Shown: piece after piece, positions 54,207-61,467 of the stretch
Numbering within the stretch: the stretch's first letter is position 1
How the letters are laid out: every line of letters starts with the position of its first letter
NCBI RefSeq assembly: GCF_900100955.1
Contig: NZ_FNCC01000006.1
Coordinates: forward strand, 372,001-436,000
Direction of reading: 5' to 3'
Origin: Lentzea fradiae
Lineage (GTDB): Bacteria > Actinomycetota > Actinomycetes > Mycobacteriales > Pseudonocardiaceae
Length of the DNA stretch: 64,000 bases
Position numbers and translations under genes: made by a program
The notes under the pieces: generated by a model
What the model saw: only the letters and a program-made list of their open reading frames with translations
What the model was told of the DNA's origin: nothing
Database searches by the model: none

Positions 54207-57200
54207 ATGTCGCACGAAGCTGAAGTGGACGGTGGCTGCCTCCCCGACCTGCTGCGCAAGCAGGTCGAGGTACAACCCGATCGCACGGCCGTCGTCTTCG
54301 GTGAGGAGAGCATCACCTACGGCGAGCTCTTCGAGCAAAGCTCGGCACTCGCCACACACCTGCGCAGACTCGGCATCAGCGCGGACGACTGCGTCGGCAT
54401 GTTCGTGGAACCGTCCCTCGACCTCGTGGTCGGCGCCTGGGGCATCCTCTGCGCCGGCGGCGCCTACCTGCCGCTCAGCCCGGAGTACCCGGAAGAGCGA
54501 CTTCGGTACATGATCGAGGACTCCCGCACGAAGGTCGTCGTCACGCAGCGCGCCCTCAAGCAGCGGCTGGCCGAGCTCGCGCCCGCCACGACCCGGATCG
54601 TCACGCTCGACGACTGCGACGAGGCGTTCGACGACGGCTTCTCCCCCGCGCACGACAGCCTCGCGTACATCATCTACACCTCGGGCAGCACCGGCAGGCC
54701 CAAGGGCGTGATGATCGAGCACCGCAGCATCGTCAGCCAGATGCAGTGGCTGCACGACGCGCACGGCATCGACAGCACCAAGCGCGTGGTGCAGAAGACG
54801 CCGATGAGCTTCGACGCGGCGCAGTGGGAGATCCTGGCGCCCGCGGTCGGCAGCACCGTCGTGATGGGCCGTCCCGGCATCTACCGCGACCCGGAGATGC
54901 TGATCGAGACCATGCGCGAGCACGCCGTCACGACGCTGCAGTGCGTGCCGACGCTGTTGCAGGCGTTGATCGACACCGAGGAGCTGCACACCGTCACGTC
55001 GTTGCGGCAGGTCTTCAGCGGCGGCGAGGCGTTGTCCCGCACGCTCGCGCAGAGCTTCGTCGACACGATGCCCGGCACGGCGCTGATCAACGTCTACGGC
55101 CCCACCGAGACGACGATCAACTCCTCGTCGCACGTCGTCGACCCGGCCGAGCTGGCGGAGGCGCCGAAGTCGATCTCGATCGGCCTGCCCGTCGCGAACA
55201 CCACCTACCTGGTGCTCGACGCCAACCGCGACCCCGTCACGCCCGGCGAGATCGGCGAGCTGTACATCGGCGGCATCCAGGTCGCCCGCGGCTACCTGCA
55301 CCAGCCGGAGCTGACCGCGGAACGGTTCGTGGACGGCCTGTTCCGCACCGGCGACCTCGTGACGCAGAACCTCGACGGCACCGTGCAGTTCGCCGGACGT
55401 GCCGACAGCCAGGTGAAGCTGCGCGGCTACCGCGTCGAGCTGGACGAGATCCGGCTCGCGATCGAGACGCACGACTGGGTGCGCAACGCCGCGGTCATCG
55501 TGAAGTCCGACGAGCGCACCGGGTTCCAGAACCTGATCGCGTGCGTCGAGCTGAACCCCAAGGAAGCCGCCCTGATGGACCAGGGCAACGCGGGCGCGCA
55601 CCACCAGTCGAAGGCGAGCAGGCTGCAGGTCCGCGCGCAGCTGTCGAACCCCGGCGTGCGCGACGACGTCGGCGGCCGCGAGACGTTCGAGCTGCCCGGC
55701 GAGGAAGCCTCGTGCCTGCAACGGAAAGTCGTCTTCTCGCGCAAGTCGTACCGGTTCTACGAGGGCGGCCAGGTCACCGACGCCGACCTGGCGCGGCTGC
55801 TGGAGCGCAAGCCCGCCGGGGCGGGCACGAAGGACCCGGCGACCATCCGCTTCGCCGAGCTGGGCGAGATCCTGCGCTACTTCGGCGCGCACTTCAGCGA
55901 CCAGCGGCTGCTGCCGAAGTACGGCTACGCCTCACCGGGCTCGCTCTACGCGACCCAGCTGCACCTGGAGCTGCACCACATCGCGGGCCTGCCGGCCGGG
56001 CTGTACTACTACCACCCGCTGCGCCACCAGCTCGTGCTGATCTCGGCGGTGCCGGAAAGCTCGCAGCCGCTGGCGAAGCTGCACTTCATCGGGCGCAAGG
56101 CCGCGATCGAGGCGGTGTACCTCAACAACATCCGCGAAGTCCTGGAGATCGAGACCGGTCACATGGTCGGCCTCTTCGAGGAGGTTCTGCCGGGCTACGG
56201 GCTCGACGTCACGGCCTCCGCGCACACCCCGGAGACCAAGGACCTGCTGGACGTCTCCGACGAGGACTACTACCTCGGCACGTACGAGCTGTGCGCGTAC
56301 GACGGTGTCCGCGAGGACGACGTCGACATCTACGTGCAGACGCACCCCGGCCGCGTCACGAACCTGCCCGGCGGCCAGTACCGCTACGCCGACGGCGAGT
56401 TCGAGCGCGTGTCCGACGAACTGGTGCTGCGCAAGCACGTCATCGCGATCAACCAGGCCGTGTACGAGCGGGCGAGCTTCGGCGTCACCGCGGTCAGCCG
56501 CGCGCCGGAGACCTGGCGGCGGTACATCGACCTCGGCCGGACCATGCACCGGTTGTCCGCCAACGACGTCGACCTCGGCTTCATGTCGTCGGGCTACAGC
56601 TCCAAGTCGGACAACGACCTGCCGTCGGCCAAGCGCATCAACGGCATCCTCGCGGACATCGGCGAGGAGCCCGGCCCGTCGTACTTCTTCCTGGGCGGCA
56701 AGGTCTCCTACGAGCAGCGCCGCAGCCCCGGCATGAAGGAAGACGTCGTCCACATGAAGGGGCCGGCCGAGCTGATCCGCGACGACCTGGTCAACTTCCT
56801 GCCGGACTACATGATCCCCAACAAGGTCGTGGTGCTCGACCGGCTGCCGGTCACGGCCAACGGCAAGATCGACGTGAAGGCCCTGGAAGCGTCCGACAAG
56901 ACCGACGTGGACGACCAGGACCGCCCGTTCGTCGCCCCGCGCACCCTCACCGAGCGCCGCATCAGCGAGATGTGGAAGAAGCTGATGAAGCGCGAGACGG
57001 TCTCGACGCACGACGACTTCTTCGAGACCGGCGGCAACTCCCTGATCGCGGTGGGCCTGGTCAACCGCATCAACAAGGACTTCGGCACGGCCCTGCCGCT
57101 GCAGGTGCTCTTCGAGTCGCCGACGATCGAGCAGCTCGCCCGCCGGGTCGACGGCCTGCACGACGGACCTGTCTCGCGGCTGGTCCCGTTGCAGCCCAAC

Positions 57201-58070
57201 GGGGACGCGACGCCGGTGTTCTGCTGGCCGGGTCTCGGCGGCTACCCGATGAACCTGCGCACGCTGGCGAGCCGGTCGGAGCGGCCGTTCTACGGCGTGC
57301 AGGCGCACGGCATCAACGAGGGCGAGACGCCGTACCGCACCATCCGCGAGATGGCCGCCGCCGACATCGAGGCCATCAAGGAGGTGCAGCCGGAGGGCCC
57401 GTACACGCTGTGGGGCTACTCCTTCGGCTCGCGGGTCGCGTTCGAGACGGCCTACCAGCTCGAACAGGCGGGGCACGAGGTCGCGAACCTGTTCCTGATC
57501 GCACCCGGCTCGCCGAAGGTGCGGTCGGAGCGGGCGAGCGACGAGGCGTCCTACGACAACAGCGCGTTCGTCACGATCCTGTTCTCGGTGTTCGCGGGCA
57601 GCATCACGGACCCGAAGCTCGCCCGGTGCCTGGAGGTCGCGAAGGACGAGGACAGCTTCGCGGCGTTCATCAGCAGCGAGTTCCGCGACCTCGACAGCGA
57701 ACTGGTCCACCGGATCATCAAGATCGTCACGGAGACGTTCACGTTCAAGTACACGTTCAGCGAGCTGGCCGAGCGCACGATCTCGGCTCCCCTCACCATC
57801 TTCAAGGCCCAGGGCGACGACTACTCGTTCATCGAGGGCAGCGAGGGCTTCTCCGTCACCGAACCGGTCGTGGTCGAGCTGCGGGCCGACCACTACAGCC
57901 TGCTGCGCGAGCCCGACATCGACGAGCTGCTGGCGTCGATGGAACGGCGTGCGACCGTCCAGCAGGAGGTCTCCCGCATCCCGGTGCAGCTGTCGGAGCA
58001 GCAGATGTCCGAGCTGATCGCCGCCGTCACCAAGGCCGTCACCCTCGCCATCACGGCGAACCAGTCGTGA
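54207..58070 (+). CDS. indC: Single-module NRPS, indigoidine/minimycin synthetase type (A-Ox-T-TE)
   Basis: The 1287-residue enzyme has the full architecture of indigoidine synthetases (BpsA about 1280). An adenylation domain carries A3 YTSGSTGRPKG (about 157), A7 RTGDL (about 381) and A8 LRGYRVE (about 405). A flavin oxidase domain inserted after A8 begins SKASRLQVRAQLSNPGVRDD (about 468) and holds RKSYRFYEGG (about 512). A10 NGKIDVK (about 886), carrier site GGNSL (about 943) and thioesterase GYSFGS (about 1070) follow. It should activate L-glutamine, oxidise it and cyclise it to 5-amino-3H-pyridine-2,6-dione, the indigoidine unit, or an intermediate toward minimycin. GGGGGA precedes the ATG. 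Confidence 0.95.
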   Translation: MSHEAEVDGGCLPDLLRKQVEVQPDRTAVVFGEESITYGELFEQSSALATHLRRLGISADDCVGMFVEPSLDLVVGAWGILCAGGAYLPLSPEYPEERLRYMIEDSRTKVVVTQRALKQRLAELAPATTRIVTLDDCDEAFDDGFSPAHDSLAYIIYTSGSTGRPKGVMIEHRSIVSQMQWLHDAHGIDSTKRVVQKTPMSFDAAQWEILAPAVGSTVVMGRPGIYRDPEMLIETMREHAVTTLQCVPTLLQALIDTEELHTVTSLRQVFSGGEALSRTLAQSFVDTMPGTALINVYGPTETTINSSSHVVDPAELAEAPKSISIGLPVANTTYLVLDANRDPVTPGEIGELYIGGIQVARGYLHQPELTAERFVDGLFRTGDLVTQNLDGTVQFAGRADSQVKLRGYRVELDEIRLAIETHDWVRNAAVIVKSDERTGFQNLIACVELNPKEAALMDQGNAGAHHQSKASRLQVRAQLSNPGVRDDVGGRETFELPGEEASCLQRKVVFSRKSYRFYEGGQVTDADLARLLERKPAGAGTKDPATIRFAELGEILRYFGAHFSDQRLLPKYGYASPGSLYATQLHLELHHIAGLPAGLYYYHPLRHQLVLISAVPESSQPLAKLHFIGRKAAIEAVYLNNIREVLEIETGHMVGLFEEVLPGYGLDVTASAHTPETKDLLDVSDEDYYLGTYELCAYDGVREDDVDIYVQTHPGRVTNLPGGQYRYADGEFERVSDELVLRKHVIAINQAVYERASFGVTAVSRAPETWRRYIDLGRTMHRLSANDVDLGFMSSGYSSKSDNDLPSAKRINGILADIGEEPGPSYFFLGGKVSYEQRRSPGMKEDVVHMKGPAELIRDDLVNFLPDYMIPNKVVVLDRLPVTANGKIDVKALEASDKTDVDDQDRPFVAPRTLTERRISEMWKKLMKRETVSTHDDFFETGGNSLIAVGLVNRINKDFGTALPLQVLFESPTIEQLARRVDGLHDGPVSRLVPLQPNGDATPVFCWPGLGGYPMNLRTLASRSERPFYGVQAHGINEGETPYRTIREMAAADIEAIKEVQPEGPYTLWGYSFGSRVAFETAYQLEQAGHEVANLFLIAPGSPKVRSERASDEASYDNSAFVTILFSVFAGSITDPKLARCLEVAKDEDSFAAFISSEFRDLDSELVHRIIKIVTETFTFKYTFSELAERTISAPLTIFKAQGDDYSFIEGSEGFSVTEPVVVELRADHYSLLREPDIDELLASMERRATVQQEVSRIPVQLSEQQMSELIAAVTKAVTLAITANQS

Positions 58071-58080
58071 GGAGGCTCCC

Positions 58081-58305
58081 GTGCCACACGTGAACATCAA
58101 GCACTTCCCGAAACAGCTCACCGCGGAGGAGTCCGCGGAGCTGGTCGCGGGCGTCACCGCGGCGGTCACGAAGGCGTTCGGCTGCGACGAGGGCGTCGTC
58201 TCGATCGCCGTCGAGCCGGTGGCTCAGGAGGAGTGGCAGGACCGGGTCTACGGGCCGGAGATCGCCGACCGCAAGGACCTGCTGCACAAGACCCCGAGCT
58301 ACTGA
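58081..58305 (+). CDS. PptA-like tautomerase (4-oxalocrotonate tautomerase family)
   Basis: The 74-residue protein is a tautomerase of the 4-OT family. The catalytic N-terminal Pro (second codon, exposed after Met removal) is present in [13 protein letters not shown], and the length and the [12 protein letters not shown] strand match PptA/YdcE. It starts with GTG behind GGAGG and sits 10 bp after the NRPS gene. Tautomerases are not part of the indigoidine clusters I know, so it may act on the keto-enol or imine form of the pathway product. Its role is unknown. Confidence 0.9.
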
Positions 58306-58312
58306 GGCGCAG

Positions 58313-59233
58313 ATGAACATCCCCCTGGTGTACAGCGAGGAAGTGGCCGAGGCGATCACGGCCGGGCAACCGGTCGTGGCGCTGGAGTCCAACGTCATCA
58401 CGCACGGCCTCGACTACCCCGACAACGCCGAGACCGCGCGCCGGGTCGAGGACGCGGTCAGGGCGGGCGGGGCCGTGCCCGCGACCATCGGCATCGACAA
58501 CGGCAGGATCCTCGTCGGCCTCACCGAGGACGACATCGAGCGGTTCGCGACCACTCCGGGCATCCCGAAGGTCAGCAGCCGCGACCTGCCGATCGTGCTG
58601 GCCCGCGGCGGGATGGGCGCCACCACGGTCGCCTCGTCGGTGATCGCCGCCGAGCTGGCGGGGCTGAGGTTCTTCTCCTCGGCAGGGATCGGCGGCGTGC
58701 ACCGCGGTGCCGAACGCACGATGGACATCTCGTCGGACCTGGTGCAGTTCACCAGGTCCAAGGTCGCGGTCGTGTGCGCGGGGGCGAAGAACATCCTCGA
58801 CCTCGGGCTCACGATGGAGTTCCTGGAGACGCACTGCGTGCCGGTCGTGGCCTACCGGTCCGACGACTTCCCGGCGTTCTACTGCGTCTCCAGCGGGCTG
58901 CGCAGCCCGCACCGGATCGACGACGCCGCGGTGCTCGCGCGGGCCGTCGAGAACCACTGGGCGGTCGGCAACCCCGGCGCGTTCCTCGTCACCACCCCGA
59001 CCAGGCTCGCCGACGCCATCGACGGCGACGAGGTCGAGGCGGTGATCAACGAGGCCGTCGCACGGGCCGAACGCGAGGGCGTGAGCGGTCAGGCGATCAC
59101 GAAGTACCTGATGCGGGCGGTCGACAGGGCCACGGAAGGCCGTTCCGCCAAGGCCAACCAGGCCGTGCTGATCAGCACCGCCGAGGTCGCCGCGGAGCTG
59201 GCCGTCGCGCACGCGAAGGAGTTCTCCTCATGA
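58313..59233 (+). CDS. indA: Pseudouridine-5'-phosphate glycosidase-like protein (IndA/MinB)
   Basis: The 306-residue protein is a PsuG/IndA-type enzyme that makes or breaks the C-C bond between ribose 5-phosphate and a pyrimidine-like ring. Conserved regions are [16 protein letters not shown] (residues 22-37), [15 protein letters not shown] near 82, [20 protein letters not shown] (about 122-141) and GAKNILDLG with the catalytic Lys. In the minimycin pathway the homologue joins the ring to ribose 5-phosphate. It lies between the tautomerase and the phosphatase genes. Confidence 0.93.
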
Positions 59234-59892
59234 GCCGGTGCGTGGTCTTCGACCTGGACGGCACGCTCGTCGACACCCCGCGCGGGATCGTCACGACGTT
59301 CGCCGCCGTGTTCACCCAGCTCGACCTGCCCACGGCCGACTCCGGCACGATCCGCGGCACCATCGGGCTGCCGCTGCCCGCGGCGTTCGCGAAGGTGCTC
59401 GGCACCGCCGAGGACGACCCGGTGGTCGGGACGTGCGTCGAGCTGTACCAGTCGACGTTCCGCCGGATCGTGCTGCCGATGGCGACGCAGCTGGTCTTCG
59501 CCGGGGTGTACGACGGGCTGAGGACGTTGCGGGACAGCGGTTTCCTGCTGGCCGTCGCGACGAGCAAGTACATCCGCAACGCCGAGGCGCTGCTCACCGC
59601 CGCCGGGCTGCGCGAGGAGTTCTCGGTGGTGGTCGGCGCGGACCAGGTCTCGAAGCCCAAGCCCGACCCCGAGTCCGGCTTCCTGGTGCTGGAGAAGCTC
59701 GGCGTGGCCGCGGGCAACGCCGTGATGGTCGGCGACACGACGCACGACGTCCTGATGGCGCACGGTGCCGGGATGTCGTCGATCGCCGTCAGCTACGGCG
59801 TGCACAGCGTCGACCAGCTGCTCAACGCCAACCCCACCTGGCTCGTCGACTCGTTCGCAGGCGTCGTCGCCGCCGTGAAGGAGTGCTCGTGA
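59230..59892 (+). CDS. indB: HAD-family phosphatase (IndB/MinC-N type)
   Basis: The 220-residue protein has all HAD motifs: [11 protein letters not shown] (residues 5-15, nucleophile Asp), ATSK (motif II), KPKPDP (motif III) and [10 protein letters not shown] (motif IV). It would remove the 5'-phosphate from the C-nucleotide product. In the minimycin pathway, as I recall, MinC carries such a phosphatase as its N-terminal domain fused to another domain; here it is a stand-alone enzyme. ATGA overlaps with indA and GTGA with the next gene show tight coupling. Confidence 0.92.
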
Positions 59893-60548
59893 TCGAGGCG
59901 TACCTGGAGAAGAACGTCCACCTGTTGCCGCAGACCAACCAGCTGCGCGCGATGCACACGATCGTCCGCGACCGCAACGCCTCGCGTGAGGACTTCGTCT
60001 TCTACACCGAGCGGATCAACCGGCTGCTCGTCGAGGCGGGCCTGGACCTGCTGCCGTTCGAACCGCACGACGTCACCACCCCGGTCGGCGCGACCTACCA
60101 CGGTCTGAAGCCGGCCGGGCGGCTCGTCGGCGTCCCGGTCATCCGCGCGGGCGAGAGCATGGAGGCCGGGCTGCGCGCGGTCGTTCCCGCGGCCCGGATC
60201 GGCAAGATCCTCATCCAGCGGGACAAGGTCACCAAGCTCCCGAAGCTCTACTACGCCAACCTCCCCGACGACATCGCGTCACGGCACGTGCTGCTGCTCG
60301 ACCCGATGCTCGCCACCGGTGGCACGGCGAACGCGGCGATCCAGGTCCTCCTCGACCACGGCGTGCGGGAGGAGAACATCGTCTTCGTCACCTTCATCAC
60401 GGTGCCCGAGGGCGTCGAGGCGGTGTGCTCGCGCTTCCCTCTCGTGCGGATCGTGACGTCCGCGATCGAGGAACGGCTCAGCGAGGACGCGTTCATGCTC
60501 CCCGGGATCGGCGACTTCGGCGACCGGTTCTTCGGCACCGACGACTGA
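59889..60548 (+). CDS. upp: Uracil phosphoribosyltransferase (UPRT), probable self-protection enzyme
   Basis: A 219-residue UPRT that forms UMP from uracil and PRPP. The PRPP loop LLDPMLATGGTANAAI (about residues 136-151) and the uracil-binding MLPGIGDFGDRFFGT at the C-terminus are intact. The start is GTG at 59889, overlapping the phosphatase stop. A UPRT in this operon is not needed for pigment synthesis, but I recall MinD, a UPRT, being described as protecting a minimycin producer by raising UMP. That is the strongest hint toward a minimycin-like product. It could also be an ordinary salvage enzyme. Confidence 0.93.
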   Translation: MIEAYLEKNVHLLPQTNQLRAMHTIVRDRNASREDFVFYTERINRLLVEAGLDLLPFEPHDVTTPVGATYHGLKPAGRLVGVPVIRAGESMEAGLRAVVPAARIGKILIQRDKVTKLPKLYYANLPDDIASRHVLLLDPMLATGGTANAAIQVLLDHGVREENIVFVTFITVPEGVEAVCSRFPLVRIVTSAIEERLSEDAFMLPGIGDFGDRFFGTDD

Positions 60549-60561
60549 CGGGACGAAACCC

Positions 60562-61467
60562 ATGCGGGACAAGAGGTTGCTGACCGACTCCGCGATCACG
60601 GCGCTGGCGCCGATGATCTGGGGCAGCACGTACCTCGTCACCACCGAGCTGCTGCCGCCGGACCGGCCGCTGCTGGCCGCGGTGGTCCGCGCGTTGCCGG
60701 CGGGCCTGGTCCTGCTGCTGTTCGGACGGGTCCTGCCGCGGGGCTCCTGGTGGTGGCGCGCCCTCGTGCTGGGCACGCTCAACATCGGCGCGTTCTTCTT
60801 CCTGCTGTTCGTCTCCGCCTACCACCTGCCGGGCGGCGTGGCGGCGCTCGTCGGCTCGGTCCAGCCGGTGGTCACGCTGGTGCTGGCCGCGCTGGTGCTC
60901 GGTGACAGGATCCGGCTCCCGCACGTGCTCGCATGCGTCGCCGCCACCGCGGGCGTCGCGTTGCTGGTGCTGAAGGCGACAGCCCAGCTCGACCTCGTCG
61001 GTGTGCTCGCGGCGCTCGGCGGCGCGGTGAGCATGGCGTCCGGCATCGTCCTCACGAAGCGGTGGCGGCGGCCGGAGGGCGTGAGCGTCCTGCTGTTCAC
61101 CGGCTGGCAGCTCACCGCGGGCGGGCTGGTGCTGCTGCCCGCGCTGTTCCTGCTGGAGGGCCTGCCGGACACGATCACCGGCACCAACGCGCTGGGCTTC
61201 GGCTACCTGGTCGTGCTCGGCTCGCTGTTCGGCTACTCGGTCTGGTTCCGCGGCACCGAGCGGGTGCCCGCGATCGGGTTGTCGTTCCTGGGGTTCTGCA
61301 GCCCGATCGTGGCGACCGCGCTCGGCTTCGTGTTCCTCGGCCAGACCTTGTCGTTCCCGCAGTTCGCGGGCGCGGCGATCCTCATCGGGGCGATCGTGCT
61401 GGTGCAGCTCACCCCGGCGAAGGCACCGCCGCTGCCGGAACGGGAGCTTCAGCGCACGACGTCGTAG
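60562..61467 (+). CDS. EamA-family exporter of the C-nucleoside/indigoidine operon
   Basis: The 301-residue protein has ten predicted spans in two EamA repeats. The first repeat has APMIWGSTYLVTTELLPPDRP near residues 16-34, with the family Trp-Gly-Ser. It lies 13 bp after the UPRT gene on the same strand, so it is the last gene of the NRPS operon and probably exports the product, in the place of MinT. Its 3' end overlaps the convergent reductase gene by 19 bp. Confidence 0.87.
   Translation: MRDKRLLTDSAITALAPMIWGSTYLVTTELLPPDRPLLAAVVRALPAGLVLLLFGRVLPRGSWWWRALVLGTLNIGAFFFLLFVSAYHLPGGVAALVGSVQPVVTLVLAALVLGDRIRLPHVLACVAATAGVALLVLKATAQLDLVGVLAALGGAVSMASGIVLTKRWRRPEGVSVLLFTGWQLTAGGLVLLPALFLLEGLPDTITGTNALGFGYLVVLGSLFGYSVWFRGTERVPAIGLSFLGFCSPIVATALGFVFLGQTLSFPQFAGAAILIGAIVLVQLTPAKAPPLPERELQRTTS

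Follow-up and report, generated by a model that had tools for sequence, protein, structure and literature searches.

In the genome (8.5 Mb) of Lentzea fradiae, which belongs to a genus of soil bacteria, we examined a six-gene operon whose products probably join ribose to the precursor of the blue pigment indigoidine, yielding a minimycin-like nucleoside without the final ring-changing step. The operon lies at positions 54207-61467 of the window, by which we mean the whole analysed stretch of 64,000 nucleotides (contig NZ_FNCC01000006.1, positions 372,001 to 436,000). On balance, we find it fairly likely that it is a variant of the minimycin (min) cluster lacking the oxidase, and that its predicted reactions lead to an un-oxidised C-nucleoside, with protection by a uracil phosphoribosyltransferase (UPRT). 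Its six genes, all on the same strand, encode a nonribosomal peptide synthetase (NRPS), a tautomerase, a C-glycosynthase, a phosphatase, the UPRT and an exporter:

54207..58070, + strand: minA/indC-type synthetase, A(Ox)-T-TE, 1287 aa (open reading frame, Pfam/NCBIfam, homology)
57978..58067, + strand: C-terminal tail of MinA, residues 1258-1287, putative truncated Tau-like remnant (alignment with fused Tau, omega, predicted helix)
58081..58305, + strand: stand-alone tautomerase of the PptA/4-OT type, 74 aa, Pro1 directly after the start codon (Pfam, YdcE alignment)
58313..59233, + strand: C-glycosynthase of the IndA/MinB/YeiN type, 306 aa (Pfam, YeiN residue alignment)
59230..59892, + strand: HAD phosphatase, single domain, without DUF4243 (Pfam, nucleophile motif)
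59883..60548, + strand: UPRT (Pfam/NCBIfam)
60562..61467, + strand: EamA/DMT-type exporter (Pfam/NCBIfam)

C-glycosynthase, UPRT and the missing oxygenase

The C-glycosynthase of the window retains both catalytic residues, Glu25 and Lys159, which align with Glu31 and Lys166 of YeiN, named as key residues in the available part of PMC7722734. We compared 80 loci related to the operon and scored IndA as catalytic if the residues aligned to this YeiN pair were kept; the loci are akin, and contig ends truncate several of them, so that they do not represent 80 independent trials. Catalytic IndA was present in 41 of the 80 loci, and UPRT accompanied it in 40 of these 41 (the exception being L074). 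None of the 39 loci without catalytic IndA (35 with no IndA, four with dead IndA) contained UPRT, and weaker UPRT matches were absent from them as well. For L048 (no genes called) and L074 (no cluster genes called), the cluster genes were taken from homology search. Since UPRT co-occurs with catalytic IndA, a protective role of the UPRT in the window operon is supported. An earlier reading of the DNA, made from its letters alone (the sequence-only reading), had held that a UPRT would be pointless for a pigment alone and had seen a min-related operon for a C-nucleoside; the retained residues and the tracking of catalytic IndA by UPRT agree with both views.

In the min cluster minABCDT of Streptomyces hygroscopicus, as described in the available part of PMC8724604, MinA carries a Tau domain, MinB is a C-glycosynthase, MinC combines HAD with DUF4243, MinD is a UPRT and MinT a transporter. 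The comparison of the window with this cluster holds for the A-Ox-T-TE synthetase (Ox inferred), the Tau function, the catalytic MinB-type enzyme, the HAD phosphatase and the UPRT. A transporter gene is also present in each, that of the window being of the EamA type and possibly of another family than MinT. Unlike the min cluster, the operon encodes Tau as a separate gene, and its counterpart of MinC consists of HAD only. The phosphatase had already been recognized as a single domain, a correct description that left out the key point, namely the missing DUF4243. DUF4243 (OzmD) is a non-haem iron enzyme converting the pyridine C-nucleoside into the oxazine.

Pfam did not detect PF14027 (DUF4243) among the six operon proteins, nor did a profile search find it in the window genome. 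In positive controls, run as separate searches, PF14027 was recovered at E 1.8e-35 or better from all 11 genomes known to carry a DUF4243-type cluster. The other 28 genomes of the control searches yielded a match of 5.8e-19 with an internal stop codon in L048, eight short matches (E 1.6e-6 to 3.9e-5) and otherwise none; the first of these lies in a Shewanella genome that carries the cluster (G1193:C3:104703-105428). Among 24 Lentzea genomes, PF14027 occurred in one (G037), in a separate second cluster (L088) that also holds an NRPS with Tau, IndA, HAD and UPRT. Eleven of the 41 catalytic-IndA loci had a called DUF4243 gene and 30 had none called nearby, the status of L048 and L074 being based on the genome-wide profile search only. 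The known minimycin route is incomplete in the window genome, and minimycin by this route is unlikely, because the enzyme credited with oxazine formation, DUF4243, is not encoded in the operon and went undetected in the genome. Of the earlier suggestion of a minimycin variant or a route to both products, the min-related C-nucleoside operon thus stands, and minimycin itself becomes improbable.

All six co-directional open reading frames of the sequence-only reading, which had put overlaps or gaps at 13 bp or less, were recovered, with successive distances of 10, 7, -4, -10 and 13 bp. Pfam/NCBIfam scans agreed with the gene families it had assigned: AMP-binding (1.5e-90), PP-binding and thioesterase in the synthetase, Tautomerase (5.3e-7; the PptA model gave 4e-22, slightly below its cut-off with 78.6 of 83 bits), Indigoidine_A (1.6e-108), HAD_2 (2.1e-36), UPRTase (8.1e-76) and EamA (6.8e-35). 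The oxidase (Ox) domain gave no match in the Pfam scan of the synthetase; its presence is inferred because an insert of about 425 residues separates the A core from the A C-terminal piece and similarity to related synthetases is near full length. The operon UPRT falls under the TIGR01091 upp equivalog cut-off (158.1 of 208.35 bits) and over that of PRK00129, and a second strong UPRT match (4.4e-65) is located on contig C27 of the same genome. These genes do not stand together by chance, since orthologs of the NRPS occur in 13 other Lentzea genomes (85-92% identity, mostly 90-92%) and the identical six-gene order is also found in Sphaerisporangium corydalis (L023).

Further genes were seen in related loci. 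Of the 29 loci that combine catalytic IndA with UPRT and lack DUF4243, 19 (L009, L011, L012, L015-L019, L025, L027-L030, L035, L053, L061, L067, L070, L075) have a PRAI-like gene, judged from the one member scanned, near the NRPS. Some of these add a phosphoribosyl pyrophosphate synthetase, an FMN reductase or a DJ-1/PfpI protein, and the Microbispora locus encodes a 636-aa protein that matched nothing in Pfam (L012:15202-17112); these loci may make further C-nucleosides. Where DUF4243 is a separate gene (L013, L021, L022, L024, L040, L078), two small genes stand between HAD and DUF4243, and the pair in L013 matches DMT_YdcZ exporters.

Full and reduced operons in Lentzea

The 14 Lentzea genomes with an NRPS ortholog of at least 85% identity, the window included, differ in the genes that follow the synthetase. 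The set of IndA, HAD, UPRT and EamA is present in six of them (the window, L005, L010, L026, L031 and L086), and in all six operons with UPRT and EamA the IndA is catalytic. In the remaining eight (L003, L004, L006, L007, L008, L032, L084 and L085) both UPRT and EamA are missing; even at a cut-off of E 1, no match better than 0.03 appeared. IndA survives in six of these reduced operons, its frame open over 255-290 codons and carrying in-frame deletions; each of the six has lost both catalytic residues (Glu25 to P, A or T; Lys159 to R or E). L004 has lost IndA and kept HAD, and L032 retains only the NRPS and Tau. The dead IndA genes (L003, L006, L007, L008, L084, L085) have stayed open beside a conserved HAD despite their deletions; translational coupling or a non-catalytic role may explain their retention.

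Omega of IndA was 0.17 in the full set versus 0.49 in the reduced set, and that of HAD 0.27 versus 0.38; in full operons, UPRT and EamA had values of 0.28 and 0.22, respectively. The HAD motifs DLDGTLVD (nucleophile) and GDTTxD (acidic) were found in 13/13 Lentzea, while TNR replaces TSK in L004 and L085 and the PKPDP motif differs in L006 and L004. We also compared gene families occurring in at least three loci between five of the six full operons (L086 is not in the table) and six reduced ones. The only families of full operons that occurred beside none of the reduced operons were UPRT and EamA. A replacement oxidase beside the operon was also considered, and no such family sets the full operons examined apart.

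Separate, fused and nested tautomerases

The sequence-only reading took the tautomerase for an extra gene. This did not hold: since MinA of the min cluster is described with a Tau domain, the window tautomerase is the Tau function of MinA encoded as a gene of its own. Moreover, fused versus discrete tautomerases have been noted (PMC12766979), and discrete ones appear in the indigoidine cluster of S. albus J1074 (PMC3992020) and, as IgiF, in Leisingera (PMC5014874), all in the available excerpts of these sources. The window protein aligns with E. coli YdcE (6.3e-9) including Pro1 and, being a short unit with N-terminal Pro1, fits the 4-OT/PptA group; its activity is predicted. As a marker of the nucleoside branch the tautomerase was rejected, for it is present in loci without IndA (e.g. 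L036, L037, L052, L058). The window genome also contains a second indigoidine-type synthetase (L087, G000:C18:317000-336000; 57-58% identical), in which the synthetase TGA is followed, 12 nt on, by an in-phase Tau start. The stop within the match is the synthetase's own, so that L087 is not a pseudogene, and its arrangement is intermediate between fused and separate Tau.

In the alignment of Tau regions, most fused ones also begin with M, V or L before Pro1. We therefore examined this position at the codon level. From 113 Tau sites, 26 duplicates were removed; in 52 of the remaining 87 the upstream frame stayed open over 100 codons or more, and 42 of these passed MinA homology (L111, with GTG before Pro, failed this filter and was left out; matches starting past Tau residue 12 or too close to the locus start were skipped). 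In these 42 loci the MinA frame enters Tau without a stop, and 39 of the Tau copies, forming 10 groups at 70% identity, are full-length, the other three (L044, L063, L070) being truncated. The codon before Pro1 in the 39 full-length cases is ATG in 21, GTG in 14, TTG in three and CTG in one (L017), i.e. a start codon (ATG/GTG/TTG) in 38/39 cases, compared with 4.8% of codons in the same open reading frames. All 14 valines at this position are encoded by GTG (36% of Val codons) and three of four leucines by TTG (3.1% of Leu codons). Among the 55 columns holding only M, V, L or I, the start column has the top NTG share (97%), tied with one M/L column.

Putative Shine-Dalgarno sequences were scored by pairing energy with the anti-Shine-Dalgarno core, in the form we take it to have, against a background of 1764 internal NTG codons. 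Median energies were -8.2 kcal/mol at nested starts versus -3.1 kcal/mol at internal NTG codons. Scores of -7 kcal/mol or stronger were obtained for 29/39 nested starts versus 7.1% of the background, and of -6 kcal/mol or stronger for 30/39 versus 13.9%. Thus, the fused Tau looks like a nested, separately translated gene, and the data suggest that the window tautomerase corresponds to a gene hidden within the synthetase gene in other bacteria. According to the available part of PMC5818174, tautomerase chemistry relies on an N-terminal proline, and a tautomerase motif appended to an indigoidine synthetase is noted there; an internal start yielding free Tau would reconcile this chemistry with a C-terminal fusion. 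A precedent for an internal translation start is LmbN of the lincomycin cluster (PMC4351081, excerpt), likewise a fused natural-product protein with a free domain from an internal start. The enzymes are different, and the free LmbN domain was shown by Western blot, unlike the Tau start, which is read from DNA. The LmbN-type combination of in-frame start and ribosome-binding site is found in the fused homologs and is inapplicable to the window, where Tau is separate. Our literature search, which did not cover the primary min papers, found no report of internal initiation for this tautomerase.

Alternatively, the start and Shine-Dalgarno sequence could be relics of fusion or by-products of conservation at the protein level, with no free Tau produced. 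We regard this as unlikely, even though several observations speak for it and against a nested gene. The amino acids of the Pro1 region (PHVNIKHFP) are conserved. Of the 39 nested starts, nine score weaker than -6 (-3.4 to -5.9 overall), namely L093, L104, L106, L107, L108 and L017 (-3.4 to -4.1) and L043, L099 and L130 (-5.8 to -5.9), and in L017 this weak score is combined with CTG where a start codon is expected. In the truncated L044 a strong Shine-Dalgarno sequence is still present although the start codon is missing, so that relics can persist. Within two single clades, 18/28 and 17/34 Val columns are uniform in some codon, making codon constancy inside a clade weak evidence. Speaking against mere relics are the exclusive use of GTG for Val and the preference for TTG among Leu codons at the start; none of the eight columns that are Val across the 14 GTG loci is all GTG (within the two clades, only 1/28 and 4/34 are). 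In addition, the amino acids encoded by the Shine-Dalgarno stretch vary, and none of the three truncated Tau copies has kept a start codon.

In Lentzea, the fused copy seems to have left a trace. The MinA tail resembles the first strand and helix of Tau and ends all 14 Lentzea MinA orthologs, including L005 and L086, where the Tau gene is absent. Its omega in these orthologs is 0.23 (25 codons), versus 0.89 in the preceding linker and 0.22 in the rest of MinA, consistent with a truncated Tau remnant under purifying selection. AlphaFold modelled the TE domain plus tail with a mean pLDDT of 68.7, the tail as a helix of moderate confidence (block means 78 and 72). Our guess would be that the tail is a docking site for Tau.

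Proposed pathway and alternative readings

We infer a minimal C-nucleoside pathway that would branch off from indigoidine and halt before minimycin. MinA would oxidise and cyclise L-glutamine to a precursor, presumably an aminopyridinedione. The free tautomerase, via its N-terminal proline, would supply the tautomer usable by IndA, and IndA would couple the precursor to ribose 5-phosphate through Lys159 and Glu25. HAD would then remove the phosphate and EamA export the nucleoside, while the extra UPRT would enlarge the uridine monophosphate pool, so that the C-nucleotide is out-competed. Both glutamine oxidation and cyclisation of the MinA type and self-protection by MinD are covered in the available part of a review (PMC8724604). 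As DUF4243 was not detected in the genome, no oxazine would form by the known route, and the predicted end product is an aminopyridinedione C-riboside (C10H14N2O6, 258.085), alone or accompanied by indigoidine arising from escaping unglycosylated precursor. In other clusters, the same Tau unit would lie in frame within the 3' end of minA, preceded by a start codon of its own and in most cases by a ribosome-binding site; in the window it is a separate gene, and MinA retains only the conserved stub. Tentatively, and with some doubt, this can be extended to the family: clusters without DUF4243, of which this operon is the barest, would make new UPRT-guarded aminopyridinedione C-nucleosides, with Tau generally a nested gene giving a free Pro1-active tautomerase and the fused copy or stub serving as its dock.

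Several findings weigh against this pathway, and some of them favour an operon for indigoidine in which IndA, HAD, UPRT and EamA merely tune glutamine/ribose metabolism or pigment yield. HAD with its nucleophile motif is retained in 7/8 Lentzea operons having a dead or lost C-glycosynthase. Since HAD is still there when IndA is dead or gone, its function is not confined to the nucleoside; HAD was discarded as a mark of that branch, and the earlier view that a phosphatase would be pointless for a pigment is not supported. On the NRPS tree the reduced operons form two groups, the deciding nodes having support values of 52 and 60, so that as few as one to three loss events may lie behind the Lentzea pattern. 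Two of the six full operons (L005 and L086) lack the Tau gene, and their genomes contained no further Tau at E 1e-20, a threshold that a divergent copy would escape; Tau seems dispensable there. A BpsA/IndC-type synthetase, as in indigoidine clusters, is present in the window, where pigment is predicted at most. In the available excerpts, Lentzea clusters are labelled indigoidine by antiSMASH comparison (PMC9120177), and the activated S. albus J1074 cluster SSHG_00311-00316 turned blue, with indigoidine as its reported product (PMC3992020). That cluster shares an IndA-like protein, a discrete 4-oxalocrotonate tautomerase, an IndC NRPS, an IndB-like protein, a transporter and a phosphoribosyltransferase with the window operon and differs in gene order. 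The indigoidine-producing igi operon of Leisingera (homolog L083, without annotated IndA or UPRT) has its NRPS directly followed by stand-alone IgiF, as in the window, and differs in that no IndA, HAD or UPRT is listed in the excerpt (PMC5014874). We nevertheless judge a purely indigoidine-directed operon improbable, as it leaves unexplained the absence of UPRT from every locus without catalytic IndA, as well as the low omega and intact catalytic residues of IndA in the six UPRT-bearing Lentzea operons.

It is also conceivable, though in our opinion rather doubtful, that the operon does make minimycin, an unrelated oxidase encoded elsewhere substituting for DUF4243. S. lavendulae FRI-5 is a reported minimycin producer (PMC12093942, available part), yet PF14027 was found neither in the genome of L028 (CCM 3239, related to FRI-5) nor in three genomes with the same cluster type, a search that did not include FRI-5 itself. 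Another oxidase may exist, and the 30 catalytic-IndA loci with no DUF4243 nearby indicate that another route may be common. In Lentzea, by contrast, no oxidase family distinguishes the full operons examined, only UPRT and EamA, a comparison confined to the neighbourhood of the operon.

Labels such as 'indigoidine' or 'minimycin' derived from overall similarity need not predict what a cluster makes. Catalytic IndA together with UPRT and, separately, DUF4243 should be better predictors. The Lentzea genomes represent a natural deletion series tying self-protection to the C-glycosylation step, and a nested tautomerase, if true, would explain how the C-terminal part of a synthetase can encode an enzyme that works through a free proline at its N-terminus.

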